Shown here: one piece after another, positions 29,513 to 41,796 of the stretch
How positions within the stretch are numbered: the first letter of the stretch is position 1
Layout of the letters: every line of letters begins with the position of its first letter
NCBI GenBank assembly: GCA_963169875.1
Contig: CAUJEL010000067.1
Span: 1-64,000, forward strand
Source: Candidatus Zhuqueibacterota bacterium
Lineage (GTDB): Bacteria > Zhuqueibacterota > Zhuqueibacteria > Residuimicrobiales > Residuimicrobiaceae
Direction: 5' to 3'
DNA: 64,000 nt
Program-made: the position numbers and the translations under genes
Notes under the pieces: generated by a model
What the model was told of the DNA's origin: nothing
The model's input: only the letters and a program-made list of their open reading frames with translations
Database searches by the model: none

Positions 29513-30214
29513 TTATTCTCCCGGTTTATGGACTTGCTGTATAATCGATACGCTCGCACTGGCGCCGATGCGGCTGGCGCCGGCGTGGATCATCTCCAGA
29601 GCCGTCGCCAAATCTCGGATTCCTCCGGAGGCTTTGACGCCGATTTTTGCACCGACGGTCTGCCGCATCAGACGAATATGATCCGCCTTTGCCCCGGCGG
29701 CCGCAAACCCCGTGGAGGTCTTGACATATCCCGCGCCGGCCGCTACTGCCAGCTCGCAAGCCCGGATGATTTCATCATCCCTGAGCAGGCAGGTCTCGAG
29801 GATGACTTTAACGAGGTGGGGGGCTGAAGCCGCGACCACCGCGGCCACATCTTCCTGCATCTTTGCAAAATGGCCGGATTTGAAACGGCCGATGCACATG
29901 ACCATGTCGATTTCCGTGGCCCCCTGAGAAATCGCCAGTTTTGCTTCTTCAACCTTGATGCTGGTCTGCGATGCGCCGAGCGGGAAACCGAGGACAGTGC
30001 AAACCGGTATTTTTTCGTCGCGAAGCTGTCCGGCACAACAGGGAACCCAGACCGGATTCACGCAAACCGAGGCGAAACGATAGTCCACGGCTTCCCGGCA
30101 TAGCGCATGAATCTGTGATTCTGTTGCATCTGCCTTGAGTAACGTGTGGTCGATCATGGCCGCTAATTGTTGTGGATCTAATTGTTCTGCAAATGATTTT
30201 GAAAACAGATTCAT
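29513..30214 (-). CDS. deoC: Deoxyribose-phosphate aldolase
   Basis: DeoC cleaves 2-deoxyribose-5-phosphate to glyceraldehyde-3-phosphate and acetaldehyde in deoxynucleoside catabolism. The 233-residue TIM barrel has 'VCVNPVWVP', 'FPLGA', 'EIDMVMCIGRFKSG', 'KVILETCLL' with the catalytic lysine region, and the Schiff-base Lys in 'GYVKTSTGF' (near residue 164), then 'KASGGIRD' and 'RIGAS'. Its ATG overlaps by four bases the stop of the upstream pseudoenzyme gene, an unusual coupling. No other deo genes are visible. Confidence 0.95.
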   Translation of the reverse strand: MNLFSKSFAEQLDPQQLAAMIDHTLLKADATESQIHALCREAVDYRFASVCVNPVWVPCCAGQLRDEKIPVCTVLGFPLGASQTSIKVEEAKLAISQGATEIDMVMCIGRFKSGHFAKMQEDVAAVVAASAPHLVKVILETCLLRDDEIIRACELAVAAGAGYVKTSTGFAAAGAKADHIRLMRQTVGAKIGVKASGGIRDLATALEMIHAGASRIGASASVSIIQQVHKPGE

Positions 30215-30990
30215 ATCAGCCAGGACTCCACCTGTTTCAGGGTAAAGGATTTTAATCTGTTTGCGTGTGCGAAGAGAAGGGGTAAAATTTCCTGCGTTCT
30301 GATAACACCCAGGGCACCTGCCGCGCAGGCGATTTCGTCAAAGCTTTGCACCAGATCGTAGCGGCCGGTTTTAGCATGGACCATCAAGGGGACCGGATGC
30401 CAGGTTATATTTCCATGCGTCGTCGGGCAGGAATAATCTCCGGTGACAGCCAGAACATCCGGATTCAAGGCGGTGAGCTGCGGGACCAGAGCGTCCAACT
30501 CCTCAAGGGCCTTGATCTTTTCATAATAACCGCCCTGACGGCTCATCCGCTCCGTTTCATTCACATGAACCAGAATAAAATCGTAATCAGGGTAACAGCT
30601 GCACGCAGCCTGCATGGTTGCGACGGTGCCCTGAGCGCCGTCAACTACATCAAAATCGCAGGCGCGACAGATCTCCTGATAACGGGTATTTTCCGTGATC
30701 GCACAGGCCTTGATGGAAAAGTGCTCTTTCCAGGAACGCGGACCCTGGTCGCGGCTGTGCAGTAAGACCTGTAATGCAACCTCCTCGGCCGGCGTCATCC
30801 CGGGCGCAGCAATCTGATGTAATCCGGTAATGGATTTCCGCGCCAAAGCATTCAGATGCGGGCGGTGCGACTGCTGTAATTCTGTGAGCATGTTGGGGCC
30901 GGACTGAATGCCCCCAACACCACCTATCAGAAGAAGTAGTATTTTTGTGTTCTGTTCCCCGGTGATCAACGGCAAATCACGGTCTTGCAT
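30211..30990 (-). CDS. Degenerate AlkP-superfamily phosphoglycerate-mutase-like protein
   Basis: This 259-residue protein aligns by eye with the ends of archaeal-type 2,3-BPG-independent phosphoglycerate mutase (ApgM) but is far shorter (ApgM is about 400). The opening 'ILLLLIGGVGG' stands where the metal-binding 'DG.GD' should be. 'PGMTPAEEVALQ' replaces the catalytic-serine segment 'PG..SD.A'. 'HVNETERMSRQGGYYEKI' replaces 'H....DEAGHDGD..KK', losing Asp and His ligands. 'AVTGDYSCPTTHGNITWHPVP' keeps the Asp but has Tyr for His in 'TGDHS.P'. The insert domain is missing. It is therefore almost surely not an active mutase. It is coupled to deoC by a four-base overlap and diverges from a complete gpmI. 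A sensing or scaffolding role is possible but unproven. Confidence 0.7.
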   Translation of the reverse strand: MQDRDLPLITGEQNTKILLLLIGGVGGIQSGPNMLTELQQSHRPHLNALARKSITGLHQIAAPGMTPAEEVALQVLLHSRDQGPRSWKEHFSIKACAITENTRYQEICRACDFDVVDGAQGTVATMQAACSCYPDYDFILVHVNETERMSRQGGYYEKIKALEELDALVPQLTALNPDVLAVTGDYSCPTTHGNITWHPVPLMVHAKTGRYDLVQSFDEIACAAGALGVIRTQEILPLLFAHANRLKSFTLKQVESWLI

Positions 30991-31028
30991 ATTTATGCTT
31001 CCAAGAGAAAGAGTTCTATTTTGATAAC

Positions 31029-31057
31029 AAGATAAACTATTTCATTCTTTTTATCAA
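31029..31057 (-). promoter_or_regulatory. Promoter for the mutase-like/deoC operon
   Basis: On the minus strand TTGATA (31057-31052), 17 bases, then TATCTT (31034-31029). It lies about 40 bases before the ATG at 30990 in the divergent gap with gpmI. Confidence 0.5.
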
Positions 31058-31158
31058 TCAAAATCAGTGAGCGTGATGAAATATGATGCGCAGCAGGATT
31101 TTATTTCTTATATTTATAGGATATTTCTACCTGACTGAACAAAATAAAGGAATTCAGG

Positions 31159-32787
31159 ATGTCTCTAATTTTAAAAAAATTAAACTCTTTTTCCGGCCGC
31201 CCCGGGCCGCTGTTGCTGATCATCATGGACGGGGTCGGACTTGGAAAACAGGATGACGGGAATGCCGTTTATTTGGCGCAAACGCCCACACTGGATAAGC
31301 TCCTGCAAAGCCCGCTGGTGGCTAAATTAAAGGCCCATGGTACCGCGGTCGGATTGCCATCGGATGAGGATATGGGCAACAGCGAAGTAGGGCACAACGC
31401 CATTGGCGCAGGCCGGGTTTTTTCACAGGGCGCCAAGCTGGTGGAAGGCTCTATCCAAACCGGAAAAATCTTTTCTTCAGATATCTGGAATGAACTGGTG
31501 GCCCGGGGGTGTAACGGCCGCACACTGCATTTCATCGGCCTTCTTTCCGATGGCAATGTGCATTCGCACATTAAACAGCTCTTCGCACTGTTGCATGCGT
31601 GTGCCAAAAGCCGCGTTCACACGGTTCGACTCCATGTCCTGCTCGATGGCAGAGATGTCGGAGAGAAAACCGCACTGACCTATATCGCACAAACCGAGGC
31701 GGTTCTCGACAAGATCAACAGCGAATCCGGGTTTGATTATCGTATCGCTTCAGGCGGCGGCCGCATGGTGACAACCATGGATCGCTATAATGCGGATTGG
31801 TCGGTAGTGGCGCGGGGTTGGCAGGCGCATGTCCTGGGACAAGGACGCGGGTTCCGTTCTGCGGCAGAAGCGGTTGAGACGATGTATGCGGAAGACGAAA
31901 AAATCACCGATCAATATCTGCCGGCATTCGTGATTGTCGACGAAAAAGAAAGTCCCATAGGTGCCATCAAGGATGGGGACGGCGTTATCAATTTTAATTT
32001 TCGCGGCGATCGCGCCATGGAAATTTCCCGGGCTTTTGAAGAAAAAGAGTTTCATGAATTCGACCGGCAAGTGAGGCCGGAGGTCCTCTATGCGGGCATG
32101 ATGGAGTACGATGGCGATCTGCATATTCCGAAGAATTATCTGGTCTCCCCCCCGGAGATCGATCGCGTACTGTCCGAGTATCTATGCGCCTCCGGAGTGA
32201 CCTCCTTTGCCCTGTCCGAAACCCAAAAATACGGGCATGTGACCTATTTCTGGAACGGCAACCGATCCGGCTATATTGATGAAAAACTGGAAACATTTGT
32301 TGAAATTCCCTCTGACCGGATTGAATTTGACAAAGCGCCCAAAATGAAAGCGCGGGAGATTGCCGACAAAGCCGAGGAATTGCTGCGTAAGGGCGGGTAT
32401 CGCTTTGGCCGGGTCAATTTTGCCAATGGCGACATGGTTGGACACACCGGAAATATGGAAGCGACCATCACAGCGGTGGAAACTGTGGATCAATGCGTCG
32501 CCAGGTTGATAAACGTGGTGACGGAGTTGCAAGGCCTTGTGGTGGTGACGGCGGATCATGGCAATGCCGACGAGATGTTCACCGTGAAGGGCGGAAAAAA
32601 ATCCACCAAAACAGCGCATACGCTCAATCCAGTACCCTTTATCATTGTTGATCCGCTCTTCAGTGATGAGTACAAAATGGCGAATATGCCGCATCCGGGG
32701 TTGAGCAATATTGCCGCCACACTCCTCAATTTACTGGGTTACCAATCTCCCCGGGAATATGATGCTTCGTTGATAGAATTCAAATAG
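31159..32787 (+). CDS. gpmI: 2,3-bisphosphoglycerate-independent phosphoglycerate mutase
   Basis: GpmI interconverts 3- and 2-phosphoglycerate in glycolysis/gluconeogenesis using two Mn ions and a phosphoserine. The 542-residue chain has the metal motif 'IMDGVGLG', catalytic Ser75 in 'DMGNSEVGHN', 'DGRDVGEKTA', 'NFRGDRA', 'NFANGDMVGHTGN', and 'VTADHGNADEM'. All ligands missing from the neighbouring divergent homologue are present. AGGAATTCAGG precedes the ATG. It ends in TAG after 'YDASLIEF'. Confidence 0.97.
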   Translation: MSLILKKLNSFSGRPGPLLLIIMDGVGLGKQDDGNAVYLAQTPTLDKLLQSPLVAKLKAHGTAVGLPSDEDMGNSEVGHNAIGAGRVFSQGAKLVEGSIQTGKIFSSDIWNELVARGCNGRTLHFIGLLSDGNVHSHIKQLFALLHACAKSRVHTVRLHVLLDGRDVGEKTALTYIAQTEAVLDKINSESGFDYRIASGGGRMVTTMDRYNADWSVVARGWQAHVLGQGRGFRSAAEAVETMYAEDEKITDQYLPAFVIVDEKESPIGAIKDGDGVINFNFRGDRAMEISRAFEEKEFHEFDRQVRPEVLYAGMMEYDGDLHIPKNYLVSPPEIDRVLSEYLCASGVTSFALSETQKYGHVTYFWNGNRSGYIDEKLETFVEIPSDRIEFDKAPKMKAREIADKAEELLRKGGYRFGRVNFANGDMVGHTGNMEATITAVETVDQCVARLINVVTELQGLVVVTADHGNADEMFTVKGGKKSTKTAHTLNPVPFIIVDPLFSDEYKMANMPHPGLSNIAATLLNLLGYQSPREYDASLIEFK

Positions 32788-32970: not shown

Positions 32971-34881
32971 GTGGGGTTTTTTCTCGGAGGTTTTTTGCAA
33001 GGACTCGCACATTTTATCATAAACGACAGTGATGAAATCCTCGCGGCCTGGACGCCGCGCATTCGACAATTGCTGCCGGAACCGGCCAGGGAATTGGCGC
33101 CGACACTCGCCCAGCAGTTATGGACCGCGCTGACCATTTTCATCGTTGATGATGATCTGGATGCCGCGGTGCATCATCTCGAGCGAATTGGTCAGGAGAT
33201 CCTCTTCGAAATCCCGGATGCGCTGTCTGTGATCACCAAAGCCCTGTTGTTGAGCCGTTACATTTTATTGCCGGCGATGATAAAACACAACGGCGGTTCA
33301 AGCAATAGTCTGCAGACCTTCAGCGATATCAACGACCAGTTCGAACCCCTGCTTCTGCGCCTGAGTACTTTGCGGAAAGGGCCGGAACCCCCGGAGCAGA
33401 AAACCCTTTCCGGGGATTTTATCAAGGCCGCGGAATTGGGCCTGTTAAGGATCGATTTTGCCGGCATCGGCCTATTTGTTGTCGATGCGCAGAACAACGT
33501 GCTCTACTGGGGCGAAAGTCTAACCCCCATGTATGGTATCTCGGCGGCGGAGATGGTGGGGCAAAATCTGACCACACGCATGGCGGTTTCGGAAAAAATG
33601 GGCGGCGTGCAACGTGCGATCCGGGACGCGTTGTTAAATGGCGAGGAAGTGGAATTATGGGAGGATGTGCACCGCTCGGTTACCAATAAAGAGCTGATGG
33701 TGGACTGTAAAATAGCCCCGGTCCGGGATTCCGAGCGGCGGATTATCGGCGCGAGCGTTCTGGTCCATGATATCACCGAACGCCGTGAGCGCGAACGCGC
33801 CTTGCAGAAATACGAGCGCTACTTTGAAAATATCCTTCATGATGCGGCGGACGCCATCATTATCCTGGACGCGCAGGATCGCATCGTGATGTGGAACAAA
33901 GCCGCGGAGGCCATCTATGGTTGGCGCAAAGAAGAGGTCGTGGGAAAACCCGTCGGTTTCATTGTGCCTGACGATTCTGATTCACGCAAGGAGATCGATT
34001 GGATTAATGCGGAAGTGCGCAAGAAGGGATATGTACGAAATTTTCGTACACATCGATTGACGCGTGAGGGCAAAAAGGTTACCATTGAAGTGAGCAGGAC
34101 GGCCATCAAGGATGAAACGGGACAATTTATCGGCAGCAGCGTCATCAGCCGCGACATGACGCAGAATGAACAGCTGCGCAATCAATTGGTGCATTCGGAA
34201 AAATTATCCGCGGTTGGGACGCTCGCCGCAGGCATCGCCCATGAAATCGGAACCCCTCTCACCGCCATCTCCTCTCTTTCGCAACTCCTCAGGGCAAAGA
34301 GCAATGATCCCTTTTTCACCGAGAAAATTGCTTTGATCCAGCAATCGATCGACCGGATCAGCCGTATTGTCCGCACCCTGGTCGATTTTTCCAGACCGAT
34401 CAAACAGAAAATTGAAAACGTATATCTCAACAGCGTCATTGAAGACGTGGTTCACATCATCAAATATGACCGCCGCTTGAAGTACCGGGATGTGAAAGCC
34501 GAATTGACGCCGCAGATTCCCCAGGTTCGTGCTAGCTTTGATCAGTTGTTGCAGGTTTTTATTAATATCTGTCTCAACGCGGCGGATGCCATGGAGCAGA
34601 TCAGCGAAGGAAAGTTACTCATCCGAACCTGGTGCGACGATGAGATGGTCTATGCTTCTGTGAGCGATAATGGCACCGGCATTTCCCCGGAGCACCTGCC
34701 GCATATTTTTGAACCATTTTTTACCACCAAGGCGGAAGGCAAAGGGACCGGGCTGGGGTTATGGGTGAGCTATAATATCGTGAAAGCGTATTCAGGGGAG
34801 TTGTCCGTAACCAGCGCCCCCGGTGAGGGAACCACTTTTATAGTATCACTTCCGGTTCTGGCGGAAGTGAAGGCGGAGTGA
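32971..34881 (+). CDS. PAS-domain sensor histidine kinase (NtrB-like)
   Basis: This 636-residue cytoplasmic kinase has no membrane segment. An uncharacterised helical N-terminal region (1-150) is followed by two PAS domains (about 160-275 and 285-405), each closed by a PAC motif ('[15 protein letters not shown]', '[14 protein letters not shown]'). The HisKA domain has phosphoacceptor His424 in '[10 protein letters not shown]', and the HATPase has '[10 protein letters not shown]', 'SDNGTGI' and '[15 protein letters not shown]'. It senses an unknown cytoplasmic cue and should phosphorylate the regulator seven bases downstream. GTG 32971 has AGGA seven bases upstream; TTG 32995, with GGAGG four bases upstream, is an alternative. 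Confidence 0.92.
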
Positions 34882-34888
34882 GGGCGAC

Positions 34889-36253
34889 ATGGGAAATCGT
34901 GTCTTGCTGGTCGACGACGATGATATCACCCGCGAGTCTCTCGCGGCGGTGCTGAAAAATCATGGATTTTTTTGTGACCAGGCTGCCAACGGTCTGATCG
35001 CCTTGCAACAGATGCAGACCCAGAGCTATGATGTGATCCTGACGGATATCGAGATGCCGGTCATGAATGGCATGCAATTGATGGAAAAAAGCGCTGAATT
35101 GGATCTGCGCGGATCTTTCATCATCATCACCGCCTATGCTTCGGTGGATACCGCCATTGAGGCGCTGCGAAAAGGGGCCTATGACTATCTTCTCAAGCCG
35201 CTGAATTTTGAAGATGTGGCTGTGAAGGTGGATAAATTGATTGAGCACAAGGCGCTGGTCCAGGAAAATCAGTCTCTGCGGCAGGAAATTCACGCCCAAT
35301 ATGACTTTTCCAATATCGTGGGAAAAAGTACTGCCATCCGCAAGGTCTTTGATACCATCCGTAAAGTATCAGATAGCGACAGTCATGTTCTCATCAGCGG
35401 AAACAGCGGGACTGGCAAGGAGCTGGTCGCCAAGGCGATCCATTATAACAGCCCGAGAAGAAAAGGCCGCTTTGTTGCCATCAACTGCGGCGCGGTGACC
35501 GAGACCTTGTTTGAAAGTGAAATATTCGGACACAAAAAAGGAAGTTTTACCGGCGCGGTGGCCGACAAGGATGGATTGTTCAAGGTGGCGCACAACGGGA
35601 CGCTCTTTCTGGACGAGATCAGCGAGATGTCGTTGACGGCGCAGGCCAAATTATTGCGCGCGCTGGAGAACAAGGAAATTCTGCCCGTAGGCGCTACGGT
35701 GCCGCTTTTGGTCAATGCGCGCGTCATCGCAGCGACCAACCGGATACTGCTGCAGGAAGTGCAGCAGGGGCGCTTTCGCGAAGATCTTTATTACCGCCTG
35801 AACGTGATAGATATTCATCTGCCGTCTCTCCAGGAACGGCGAGCGGATATTCCGTTGCTGGTACAACATTTTATTGAAAAGTACAATCGCCAGATGAACC
35901 GCCAGGTGAAAAAAGTCGCCCCCGAAGTGATGGAGATGATGTGCAACCGCAGCTGGAAAGGGGAAGTGCGGGAGTTGGAGAATTTTATTGAGCGGTTGAT
36001 GATATTTGCCGAGGGGGATACTATTCGCACGGCCGATGTGCCTGTCGAGTTTTCCGCCCCCATTGAGCGCATGGAAAAATATGCAGACAAAGCCACCTTG
36101 AGGAGTGCGGTGGCTGCTTTTGAGCGGGATTATATCCGCGCGCAGTTGGCCAAGCACGAAAATCATCGCGGCCTGGCGGCCAAGGCCATGGGGATTGGGG
36201 AAGCCACGCTCTATCGCAAGATGAAAGAGTTGGGGCTGCAGGGATCCGGCTGA
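34889..36253 (+). CDS. NtrC-family sigma-54-dependent response regulator
   Basis: This 454-residue regulator has a receiver domain with phospho-Asp53 ('ILTDIEMP') and an AAA+ sigma-54 activator domain: Walker A 'GNSGTGKELV', 'ESEIFGHKKGSFTGAV' carrying the GAFTGA-type loop as GSFTGA, and Walker B 'LFLDEISEMS'. A Fis-type helix-turn-helix is at the C-terminus ('LAAKAMGIGEATLYRKMKEL'). It should activate sigma-54 promoters when phosphorylated by the adjacent kinase. Targets are unknown. The stop lies seven bases from the convergent yjbQ-like gene. Confidence 0.95.
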   Translation: MGNRVLLVDDDDITRESLAAVLKNHGFFCDQAANGLIALQQMQTQSYDVILTDIEMPVMNGMQLMEKSAELDLRGSFIIITAYASVDTAIEALRKGAYDYLLKPLNFEDVAVKVDKLIEHKALVQENQSLRQEIHAQYDFSNIVGKSTAIRKVFDTIRKVSDSDSHVLISGNSGTGKELVAKAIHYNSPRRKGRFVAINCGAVTETLFESEIFGHKKGSFTGAVADKDGLFKVAHNGTLFLDEISEMSLTAQAKLLRALENKEILPVGATVPLLVNARVIAATNRILLQEVQQGRFREDLYYRLNVIDIHLPSLQERRADIPLLVQHFIEKYNRQMNRQVKKVAPEVMEMMCNRSWKGEVRELENFIERLMIFAEGDTIRTADVPVEFSAPIERMEKYADKATLRSAVAAFERDYIRAQLAKHENHRGLAAKAMGIGEATLYRKMKELGLQGSG

Positions 36254-37530: not shown

Positions 37531-38970
37531 TCACCCTTTGATGACGCCGGCGGGGTGAAGTTTCGCGATCTTTTTAGCCAGGCCTGCACCAGCCACGGCG
37601 TCCACAACCTGGGCGACATCTTTATAAGCTTCGGGAAGTTCCTCGGCCATCGTCTCATGACTGGAGGCGCGGGCGATTATGCCCCGGTCTGCAAGTTCAC
37701 GCGCCAGAGCTCGTCCGCGGGCGGTTTTTAAGGCCTGGGTTCTGCTCATGAGCCGTCCAGCCCCGTGGCAGGCGGAGCCGAAGGTTTCCTGCATGGCTCT
37801 TTCAGTGCCGGTGAGAACGTACGAATACCGCCCCATGTCACCGGGGATGAGGACCGGCTGCCCGATTTCCCGGTATGCGGCGGGGATTTCGCTGTGATGC
37901 GGGCCAAAGGCGCGGGTCGCTCCTTTGCGATGAACACATAAGGGCCGCTTGACACCGTCTACGACATGTGTTTCAATTTTGGCGATGTTATGTGCCACCT
38001 CGTACACAACCTGCATATTCAGTGCCTGCACCCCGATGCCTAGGGCGCGCATCATGGCTTCACGAACCCAGTGTGTGATCATCTGGCGGTTGGCAAAGGC
38101 AAAATTGACAGCGCTGGCCATGGCGGCCAAATACTGTACACCCTCATCAGATTTAACCGGGGCGCAACAGAGTTGACGATCCGGCAATTCAATGCCGTAT
38201 TTCTGACTCGCGCGAAGCATCACTCTGATGGTGTCTTCACAGACTTGATGTCCCAGACCTCTGGATCCGGTATGTATGGTGATCGTGACCTGGTTTTTAT
38301 GCAGCCCCATCGCTGTTGCCGCCGGTTCGTCAAAGATCTCTTTGACTATGCCAATTTCCACAAAATGATTACCGGATCCCAGTGTGCCCAATTGGGCGCG
38401 TCCCCGTTCGAGGGCATGCTGGCTGACGAATTCCGGATCTGCAGAGGCCATGACGCCGTTTTCTTCGATTTTATCCAGATCTTCGCCATAGCCATATCCG
38501 TTTTCCACCGCCCAGGCCGCCCCCTGACGAAGGACCCTTTTTTCTTCTTTTTCGCTCAATTTGATCGGGCCGGTTGACCCAACGCCGCTCGGAACCGCGC
38601 GAAACAAGGCGTCTACCAGAGGTTGCAGTTTGGGTTTAATATCTTCCAGGCACAGATCCGTTCGCAACAGGCGGACGCCGCAGTTGATGTCATAACCGAC
38701 ACCGCCGGGAGATATGACGCCGTCATCCAGGTCGAATGCGGCGACACCCCCTATTGGAAATCCGTAACCCCAATGGATATCCGGCATGGCATAGGAGTAT
38801 CCCACGATTCCGGGCAGCCAGGCGACATGGGCGGCCTGCTCCGCCGCATGGTCTTTGAGAATATCTTTGAGCATTTTTTCCGAAGCATAGATGCGAGCAG
38901 GAACCCGCATCTTTCCCGTGCGGGGGATCTCAAACAGGTAATCATGAATCCGCTGCATATTCTCTTGCAT
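37531..38970 (-). CDS. rtcB: tRNA/RNA-splicing ligase RtcB
   Basis: RtcB joins 2',3'-cyclic phosphate and 5'-OH RNA ends using GTP and Mn. ATG 38970 gives 479 residues; the frame opens at TTG 38985, overlapping the archease stop. Family blocks: 'MPDIHWGYGFPIGGVAAFD', 'GGVGYDINCGVRLL' (metal Cys), 'GSGNHFVEIG', 'HTGSRGLGHQV', 'VHRKGATRAF' and 'SCHGAGRLMSRTQA' with the guanylylated His region. This is the archaeal/eukaryal-type long form that uses archease, and archease is the next gene upstream. Role: RNA repair or tRNA healing. Confidence 0.95.
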   Translation of the reverse strand: MQENMQRIHDYLFEIPRTGKMRVPARIYASEKMLKDILKDHAAEQAAHVAWLPGIVGYSYAMPDIHWGYGFPIGGVAAFDLDDGVISPGGVGYDINCGVRLLRTDLCLEDIKPKLQPLVDALFRAVPSGVGSTGPIKLSEKEEKRVLRQGAAWAVENGYGYGEDLDKIEENGVMASADPEFVSQHALERGRAQLGTLGSGNHFVEIGIVKEIFDEPAATAMGLHKNQVTITIHTGSRGLGHQVCEDTIRVMLRASQKYGIELPDRQLCCAPVKSDEGVQYLAAMASAVNFAFANRQMITHWVREAMMRALGIGVQALNMQVVYEVAHNIAKIETHVVDGVKRPLCVHRKGATRAFGPHHSEIPAAYREIGQPVLIPGDMGRYSYVLTGTERAMQETFGSACHGAGRLMSRTQALKTARGRALARELADRGIIARASSHETMAEELPEAYKDVAQVVDAVAGAGLAKKIAKLHPAGVIKG

Positions 38971-38981
38971 GAGGGGGTCTC

Positions 38982-39401
38982 TCAAAGATCAAAAAAGAGC
39001 AAAGCGCGCCATTTTCCGGGGGATTCCTGTTGCGCCATGATTTTGTGGTAGGTAATGGCTTTTATTTCCGTGTGGATAGCGTGCCGCAGAGGATTTATTG
39101 TTTCCCCCGCGACCTGGGCGGAGAGGCTGCCAGCCGTCCATTCAAAATGAACCACTTCAGCGAATAGATACTGATGTACCTGAAAGAGGTAATTTAATTC
39201 CGAGAGCCAGTTGACCAACAGCTCCGCCGTGTCATCGCCGCACACGTGAATGTCCTGTTTTTCTTGTGCGGCAATGACGCACTGCGGGCAAATCAGATGG
39301 AACATGCCCCGTGCTGCCGTTTGCAGCAAATCCCGAAAAGACAGGGCTTCGATTTCAAGCCCTGCATCTGCGGTATGATCCACGATCGTATAGCGGCCCA
39401 T
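38982..39401 (-). CDS. Archease
   Basis: Archease activates RtcB guanylylation and multiple turnover. ATG 39401, preceded by GAGAGG, gives 139 residues, the usual size; the frame is open to 39488 inside the upstream gene. Motifs: 'HTADAGLEIEALSFRDLL' (conserved Asp), 'AARGMFHLI', 'LLVNWLSELNYL' and 'EIKAITYHKI', ending in the acidic tail 'LLFFDL'. The start is seven bases after the HerA-like gene stop, and the stop lies just before rtcB, so the three are one operon. Confidence 0.93.
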   Translation of the reverse strand: MGRYTIVDHTADAGLEIEALSFRDLLQTAARGMFHLICPQCVIAAQEKQDIHVCGDDTAELLVNWLSELNYLFQVHQYLFAEVVHFEWTAGSLSAQVAGETINPLRHAIHTEIKAITYHKIMAQQESPGKWRALLFFDL

Positions 39402-39408
39402 GGCCCTC

Positions 39409-41796
39409 TCATTCAAACGTTTGCTGCAACGTTCCGTCACCCGTCTGCCAGAAAGGCAACCATAACAGGGCGGTGAAACGGACATCAATGTCGCTCTTTT
39501 TGGGGCGCATCGCGGAGACTTCCAAACGCTGTTGCATGGGATCGGTTTGCTGATCGATGAGCGCGATTTCCTGATCCAATTCCGTCTGTAAATCCGTGAG
39601 CCGTTGCTGCAGGACTTCCAGGCTTTCTTCGGCGTTATTGATATCGCCGCGTTCCTTGGCCGAGCGCATCCCGCTGCGCATGGCGCTGCCGGCGCGATTC
39701 AGGGTGGTTGCAGAGATGGTTTTTCGTCCAAACAGAGCGCCCAGCAGGGTGGTACCCACGGTGACCGCCGTTTGCACCGATTGGGAACGAAAATCGGATT
39801 TTTCTTTCGCCAGCTTCTGTTCCGCGCGCATGATCCGGTCCTGCAGGGCCGCGGTCTTCGATGCATACCGTTTGCGCAAGTCGTCCACCGCGGCATCCCG
39901 TTTTTCCCGGGCCATTTGCGAGATGCGGATGCGAAAGTCGCGCTCGCTCTCACCGGGGTTGGAAGATAATTTTAAACTGGTGCTTTTATAGCTTTCGATC
40001 TGGGCGGTACGGAAGAGCTTGTCAGCATACGCTGCCGTCCATAATTTAATACTGTCAGGCTTCACGGCCGCAGCCGGCAAATGATCAAACGAGGCGCCTT
40101 CGGCGGGTGTTTTTTCCAGGTCGCCATCCGAAAGGGCGGTATCTCTTGCCTGGTCCCAATCCACGGCGACCGCGCCATCGACGATGGGGGTCCATTGAGA
40201 ATATCGCTGACTGGCATCAGCGCCAAAATGAACATCGGCGATGCCCAAAACAACCGGGCGATAGAGCAGCGTCGCCTGCGCGATTTTATGGCCGCGGACA
40301 GGAGCAAAGTACTCCTTGATTTGCGGAGGAATCGCCGGCCGCAATTGTTTGCCGGAAGGGATGGACGACGGCCCGGAAGATTTTACAGACGCAGGATTTG
40401 CAGCGTTTTTACTCAGCTGCTTTATCTGTGCCAGCGTTAATGGGCCGCGCAGATAGGAGAGCGCCCAGCGCGTCTGAAAAATCACGGGTTCTTTTTCATG
40501 GATGTTCTTCATCAGGAAGACGCGTTTTCCCAGGGATGCGATGGATTTGCTCAAAGAGGGATCGAGGTCCCCGGCACTGGAACGCAAACCCTCCACAACT
40601 TTTTCAATATCCTGCTGCGTCTGCAGACGGCCGATGAACCAGGTGCCGGTGTTGGAAAGCGCTTTGTAATCGAGATCGACCGGGTTCTGCGTGGCCAGCA
40701 TGACACCGACACCAAAGGCGCGCGCCTGTTTGAGCATGATCATGATGGGTTTTTTCGATGGCGGGGCAGCCACTGGCGGTAGATATCCCGCAACTTCATC
40801 CATGTACAAGAGCGCGCGCAGGCTGGTAGTTCCCGGCTGGCTGCGCATCCAGGAGACGATTTGGTTCAACAGCAGGGTGACAAAAAACATCCGCTCAGAA
40901 TCGCTCAAGTGAGCAATATAAAATATGGAAATGCGCGGTTTGCCGTTTTTACCATACAGCAGCGTCCCGATATCGAGCGCTTCCCCCGAGAGCCAGGTGG
41001 AAAACCCCGGAGCAGCGAGAAGATTATTGAGCGCGATGGCCAATTCAAAACGCTCTTTGGCCGGATAAAATGAATCGACGGCAAAGGCGCCCACTCTGTC
41101 AAAAGGCGGGGTCTGGATGGCACTGATCAACGAAGCGAGGTCGAGATTTTGGCCGTTTTGCCAGAAATGATAAAAAATATTCGAGATCAGGATGTGATCA
41201 CGGCTTTTTATGGGATCCGCATCAATGCCAATCAAACCCAGCAACCCGGTCACGGTGGTTGATATGAGATCGCCAACGGCTTCGCGATCCTGAATGATCT
41301 CTTCGCTTGGGCAGACGAAACTGTTGAGAATGGAGACGGGAACGCCCGCGGTGCTGCCGGGTGTGAAGATGGTGAAATCAGCGGCATCCCGTAATCGTTG
41401 AATGCGCGCGCCATCTTGACCCCATTGCGCCAGACCGTTTTTCCAGGCATCGGCTTGTGCGGCGGCAAAATCTTCAGGGCTGAGCCCCTGTTGCCGGGCC
41501 TCATCCGCATTGATCCAGGGCGCGAACTCGGCCGCGGAGAGACCGGGAAACGAGAGCATGAGATTGGTCATATCCCCTTTGGGATCGATGATCAAAGCCG
41601 GGATGTTATCAATGGCGGCTTCCTCCAGCAGGGAAATGCACAACCCGGTCTTGCCGCTTCCGGTCATGCCGACGCAAACCCCGTGGGTCACCAGATCTTT
41701 GGAATCGTAAAGAATCATATCGTCAAGAACCTGTTTCCTGGCGGGGTCGTATGTTTTGCCCAGATAAAACATACCGAGTTTTTCAAAATCAGCCAT
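39409..41796 (-). CDS. HerA/DUF87-type ATPase with C-terminal coiled coil
   Basis: This 795-residue hexameric-type AAA ATPase has Walker A 'GMTGSGKT' (residues 43-50), 'ALIIDPKGDM', Walker B 'LLYMDEVAGYLPP' (near 330), and sensor 'MLATQNPVDLDY', then 'RLQTQQDIEKVVEGL'. The C-terminal third (about 600-780) is charged and coiled ('DALQDRIMRAEQKLAKE'-like and 'LEVLQQRLTDLQTELDQE'). It has no membrane segment. HerA relatives pump or unwind DNA in repair and defence; the substrate here is unknown. It lies directly upstream of archease and rtcB and 24 bases after the phosphohexomutase gene. Confidence 0.85.
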   Translation of the reverse strand: MADFEKLGMFYLGKTYDPARKQVLDDMILYDSKDLVTHGVCVGMTGSGKTGLCISLLEEAAIDNIPALIIDPKGDMTNLMLSFPGLSAAEFAPWINADEARQQGLSPEDFAAAQADAWKNGLAQWGQDGARIQRLRDAADFTIFTPGSTAGVPVSILNSFVCPSEEIIQDREAVGDLISTTVTGLLGLIGIDADPIKSRDHILISNIFYHFWQNGQNLDLASLISAIQTPPFDRVGAFAVDSFYPAKERFELAIALNNLLAAPGFSTWLSGEALDIGTLLYGKNGKPRISIFYIAHLSDSERMFFVTLLLNQIVSWMRSQPGTTSLRALLYMDEVAGYLPPVAAPPSKKPIMIMLKQARAFGVGVMLATQNPVDLDYKALSNTGTWFIGRLQTQQDIEKVVEGLRSSAGDLDPSLSKSIASLGKRVFLMKNIHEKEPVIFQTRWALSYLRGPLTLAQIKQLSKNAANPASVKSSGPSSIPSGKQLRPAIPPQIKEYFAPVRGHKIAQATLLYRPVVLGIADVHFGADASQRYSQWTPIVDGAVAVDWDQARDTALSDGDLEKTPAEGASFDHLPAAAVKPDSIKLWTAAYADKLFRTAQIESYKSTSLKLSSNPGESERDFRIRISQMAREKRDAAVDDLRKRYASKTAALQDRIMRAEQKLAKEKSDFRSQSVQTAVTVGTTLLGALFGRKTISATTLNRAGSAMRSGMRSAKERGDINNAEESLEVLQQRLTDLQTELDQEIALIDQQTDPMQQRLEVSAMRPKKSDIDVRFTALLWLPFWQTGDGTLQQTFE

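Follow-up and report, generated by a model that had tools for sequence, protein, structure and literature searches.

Pseudoenzymes and the exchange of one phosphoglycerate mutase for another are both known kinds of evolutionary change. Mutase chemistry in the superfamily that comprises ApgM and GpmI needs two metals and a phosphoserine. To our knowledge, a displaced phosphoglycerate mutase normally vanishes. A study of bacteria describes how iPGM, dPGM and the archaeal-type iPGM were gained, lost and transferred, and reports a single archaeal-type pseudogene, interrupted by an in-frame stop, in C. phytofermentans (PMC2964296). The gene analyzed here, which we call SHORT, lies in a stretch of 64,000 nucleotides of a Candidatus Zhuqueibacterota genome (contig CAUJEL010000067.1, positions 1 to 64,000; the window) and differs from that pseudogene in that it encodes an intact and selected, though by its sequence catalytically dead, protein beside the replacement.

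The closest described proteins are ApgM (PRK04135.1/TIGR00306; PDB 2zkt, 3idd, 3kd8) and GpmI (TIGR01307). ApgM shares with SHORT the predicted core fold, the C-terminal WHPxP and R-D..FDE..C motifs, a sister position in the tree and an archease-rtcB locus, whereas SHORT has only one Asp ligand, neither nucleophile Ser nor insert domain, and a score below the ApgM cut-offs. GpmI belongs to the same superfamily, is encoded by the adjacent gene and performs the reaction of the SHORT ancestor, but unlike SHORT it is an intact enzyme of 542 aa with the full catalytic set.

SHORT Is an ApgM-Like Protein Lacking Most Active-Site Residues

The genes relevant for this study are listed in Table 1. Pfam assigns SHORT to the Metalloenzyme superfamily (PF01676, 72.5 bits, cut-off 24.3). 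The best curated model was ApgM PRK04135.1, with 192.8 bits far under the 468-bit cut-off, and TIGR00306 (ApgM) gave 123.3 bits and did not reach its cut-off of 320. In a Foldseek search with the AlphaFold2 model (pLDDT 92.1, pTM 0.91), the closest PDB structure was 2zkt, the ApgM of P. horikoshii, with a TM-score of 0.86 by query. The model thus predicts that the phosphatase-like fold is retained, in agreement with the outline of ApgM/AlkP-superfamily mutases recognized in a first-pass annotation of the window. A profile search of the organism's own genome revealed no second ApgM above the TIGR00306 cut-off. An origin of SHORT from GpmI was rejected, as the protein matches ApgM models and not TIGR01307, and so was a truncated gene or an assembly error, as the same architecture is present in nine complete orthologues. 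A pipeline using the Pfam match alone could name such a protein phosphoglycerate mutase, an annotation that is corrected here.

Table 1. Features of the window around SHORT, with coordinates, strand and basis of the assignment.
Feature	Position	Strand	Basis
deoC, deoxyribose-phosphate aldolase	29513-30214	-	TIGR00126, 269 bits
SHORT (name used here), ApgM-like protein predicted to be dead, 259 aa	30211-30990	-	ORF call, ATG start
Codons of residues 23-42: former metal-Asp position (G23) and newly invariant segment	30865-30924	-	alignment
Intergenic region between the divergent SHORT and gpmI, 168 bp	30991-31158	.	gene coordinates
gpmI, intact 2,3-BPG-independent phosphoglycerate mutase	31159-32787	+	TIGR01307, 430 bits
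PAS-type histidine kinase and sigma54-type response regulator	32971-36253	+	named from sequence
rtcB, tRNA-splicing RNA ligase; ancestral apgM locus member	37531-38985	-	PF01139, 588 bits
archease, RtcB activator family; ancestral apgM locus member	38985-39488	-	PF01951, 112.6 bits
HerA/DUF87-like ATPase, 795 aa	39409-41796	-	

For the analysis of the catalytic site, the window protein and eight orthologues were aligned with eleven full-length ApgM proteins of the same phylum. In this alignment, the window protein lacks six of the seven metal and nucleophile positions. At the positions corresponding to Asp12, Ser62, Asp403, His407, Asp444, His445 and His462, the window protein has G, E, E, R, D, Y and I, respectively, whereas the full-length relatives have D (11/11), S, D, E, D, H and H. 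None of the nine aligned short forms retains the first Asp, the Ser, the fourth ligand or the last His; the Asp403-like residue is missing in eight (G013 has D) and the His of 'GDHS' in five. The Asp444-like residue is the sole original ligand that is invariant across the nine. Moreover, the insert region comprises 11-41 residues in the short forms versus 162-164 in the full-length proteins, corresponding to a missing domain of about 150 residues. The first-pass annotation had reported the loss of the N-terminal metal Asp, the catalytic Ser, the paired Asp/His ligands, the His of 'TGDHS' and the insert domain from the window protein alone, and all of these losses were recovered in the alignment. 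They are not chance events, because nine intact ORFs with 38-57% identity to the window protein have them too.

Since metal site, nucleophile and insert domain are missing, SHORT cannot, judging from the sequence, act as a mutase by the known mechanism. On the sequence level a rebuilt metal site was rejected as well: of the original ligands just one is invariant, and the invariant His198 (WHP) close by is a non-ligand already in full-length ApgM. The GpmI encoded in the window possesses every catalytic motif.

The full-length PRK04135-type ApgM proteins of the phylum (L015, L018, L014, L079, L077, L021, L016, L020, L080, L022 and L019) all have a GEDG motif, whose Glu replaces the metal-ligand His of the GHDG found in archaeal ApgM and GpmI. 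As this holds for all eleven, the active full-length enzymes of this phylum may use a Glu-substituted metal site.

SHORT Is Conserved under Purifying Selection and Has Acquired New Invariant Residues

The short form is carried by ten genomes, all belonging to one order. The copy in G003 is split over two contigs, and the other nine are intact ORFs that, at about 40% identity, contain neither a stop codon nor a frameshift. In the phylogenetic tree, the short forms constitute one clade (support 100/100, branch 0.94) beside PRK04135-type ApgM; the short form has a single origin in one remodelling event. A pattern-based scan of the genomes of 84,980 species, which weak or divergent short forms could escape, yielded eight loci, all in order members already seen, and no short form outside the phylum.

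For the closest pair (G003/G005), dN/dS of SHORT was 0.20 (bootstrap 0.12-0.32) and that of gpmI 0.063, which makes the evolution of SHORT roughly threefold faster. Two more distant pairs gave a dN/dS of about 0.2 for SHORT, with dS being near saturation there. SHORT is kept under purifying selection, and it combines the two properties of a pseudoenzyme, lost catalytic residues and a protein conserved under such selection. The description of SHORT as a conserved dead mutase in the first-pass annotation therefore stands, based on the single origin, the purifying selection and the newly invariant residues described below.

Fourteen alignment columns are invariant in the nine short forms but occupied by at least three different residues in the eleven full-length relatives, a group that is much less diverged than the short clade. 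Nine of them are located at residues 29-42 (Q29-S30-G31-P32-N33..L35..Q39-Q40..H42), which form the loop and helix directly after the lost metal Asp, and ten within residues 29-48. A48 and R51 come after the 29-42 cluster, and Y156 follows the lost Asp/Glu loop. Being a new constraint, this pattern would not result from decay alone, and the fourteen residues, most of them close to the former metal Asp, suggest that SHORT has taken on a binding role without catalysis.

SHORT Is Located Where gpmI Probably Replaced apgM

The gpmI gene adjoins SHORT in all ten carriers, and archease and rtcB usually come next. The order gpmI-SHORT-archease-rtcB was found in G006, G010, G011 and G013, and gpmI-SHORT-archease in G014; in G005, SHORT is followed by a HerA-like ATPase gene, archease and rtcB, with gpmI being divergent. 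In the window, gpmI is likewise divergent from SHORT, as stated in the first-pass annotation, and deoC lies downstream of SHORT. Here, archease and rtcB are located 7-9 kb from SHORT beyond gpmI, and the local gene order is therefore rearranged. A scan of the 168 bp between SHORT and gpmI detected promoter and terminator signals no more than expected by chance, and no column of the GpmI alignment separates carriers of SHORT from non-carriers.

Some further features of these loci were observed. The HerA/DUF87-like ATPase gene of the window adjoins archease and rtcB, and a homologue sits between SHORT and archease in locus L042. The histidine kinase/response regulator pair downstream of gpmI is also found near gpmI in several relatives. 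A class I/II aminotransferase gene, assigned by Pfam for G008 and by sequence similarity judged by eye for G016 and G017, is present between gpmI and archease in the corresponding loci L111, L115 and L116, in the place of SHORT.

The cluster gpmI-archease-rtcB also exists without SHORT, namely in G009, G012 and G015 and, in another family, in G022. SHORT is dispensable, because it is absent from the first three, which are members of the order retaining this cluster. In the GpmI tree, the carrier G014 is nested among non-carriers, which on a vertical reading requires more than one loss of SHORT; a gain by transfer in G014 is the alternative.

Full-length apgM heads the same type of locus. The order apgM-NAPRTase-like-archease-rtcB was found in G023, G028 and G063, rtcB being preceded by an additional gene in G063, and apgM-archease was found in G067. 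The full-length loci examined thus include four with apgM a short distance upstream of archease. In the loci of G028, G023 and G063 (L124, L125 and L129), a glycolytic mutase gene and a nicotinate phosphoribosyltransferase-like gene thus share one locus with the RNA repair genes archease and rtcB. One genome had both full-length ApgM and GpmI, 15 had ApgM only, 43 GpmI only and 22 neither. The presence of gpmI in only one of the 16 genomes with full-length apgM corresponds to p = 1.3e-5 in Fisher's test, which treats related genomes as independent. Carriers of SHORT have gpmI in ten of ten cases and full-length PRK04135-type ApgM in none.

Because apgM heads the same archease-rtcB locus and nearly excludes gpmI, we conclude that SHORT is what remains of an apgM after gpmI had assumed its function at the same locus. 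Common descent with ApgM is supported both by the 100/100 clade and by the archease-rtcB locus. In the simplest history, gpmI took over the mutase role, apgM shrank once, and some lineages then lost SHORT. The adjacency of SHORT and gpmI goes back in part to the ancestral locus and may reflect history rather than function.

Discussion

The data described above make it probable that SHORT is a shrunken, dead, vertical descendant of ApgM that has been retained for a non-catalytic role. Its ancestor would have been an ApgM phosphoglycerate mutase heading an apgM-(NAPRTase-like)-archease-rtcB locus, and the mutase job would have passed to GpmI encoded beside it. SHORT itself, which lacks metal site, nucleophile and insert domain, arose in one remodelling event and has since been maintained across the order by purifying selection; newly constrained are Y156 and residues 29-42, the loop and helix that come after the missing metal Asp. 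Most likely, SHORT would act by binding, its former active-site face offering either a surface for docking or a pocket for a ligand. Our leading guess is a regulator or adaptor of a non-catalytic kind. GpmI might be considered as first candidate partner because of its adjacency to SHORT in all carriers, with RtcB/archease or a small anionic metabolite as alternatives. The more specific idea that the glycolytic enzyme, once displaced, turned at its original locus into a non-catalytic modulator of GpmI or archease/RtcB is tentative and, on balance, unlikely to be correct.

SHORT might instead be a relic slowly decaying after the takeover by gpmI, with a stable fold or translation coupling in the operon being weakly selected. 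Its evolution is faster than that of its neighbours (57% identity between G000, the window genome, and G001, compared to 81% for GpmI and 73% for DeoC), several members of the order that have this locus lack it, which implies losses on the GpmI tree, and its candidate partner is only putative. However, a dN/dS clearly below 1, the nine complete orthologues free of stop codons and frameshifts, and the fourteen newly invariant columns, mostly in one segment, would not be expected for a decaying gene, and we regard this explanation as unlikely.

We consider it rather improbable that SHORT is a new enzyme whose old active-site cleft has been remodelled to catalyse another reaction, without metals, via invariant polar residues. 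Such residues are in fact numerous (Q29, S30, N33, E37, Q39, Q40, H42, Y155, Y156, K158, K160, D185, H198, R210, D212, E219 and C222), several are new, and by homology they are located on loops around the old site. On the other hand, the insert domain, and with it half of the old pocket, is missing, E37, K158, D185, H198, R210, D212, E219 and C222 were inherited from full-length ApgM, where all of them except D185 are non-ligands of the metal, and SHORT shows no likeness to other enzymes beyond its superfamily.

The proposal of the first-pass annotation that SHORT is tied to deoC, as a sensor or scaffold coupling DeoC and deoxyribose catabolism to glycolysis, is highly improbable and largely refuted: the 4-nt overlap (ATGA, 30211-30214) was confirmed but occurs in G000 only, and deoC directly neighbours SHORT in just two further carriers, G001 and G002; a gap of about 220 nt replaces the overlap in G001, which belongs to the same genus, and deoC is non-adjacent in the other seven carriers, lying away from SHORT wherever it was found. 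The search for homologues thus recovered the same losses in ten genomes of one order, but not a conserved neighbourhood with deoC. As deoC is present in 20 of 22 genomes of the order irrespective of SHORT, a stable linkage was rejected, and the one observed here reflects a recent, incidental gene arrangement.

A literature search of limited coverage yielded no report of an ApgM that, after its displacement, persisted next to the replacing enzyme as a dead and domain-reduced protein under selection. All stages of this process are present at one locus in living relatives, with full-length apgM, gpmI plus SHORT, and gpmI alone. The locus therefore provides a natural series for studying how pseudoenzymes arise and whether they acquire a function. 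If SHORT is indeed a modulator of GpmI or archease/RtcB, it would represent a route by which the replacement of an enzyme creates a new regulatory protein.
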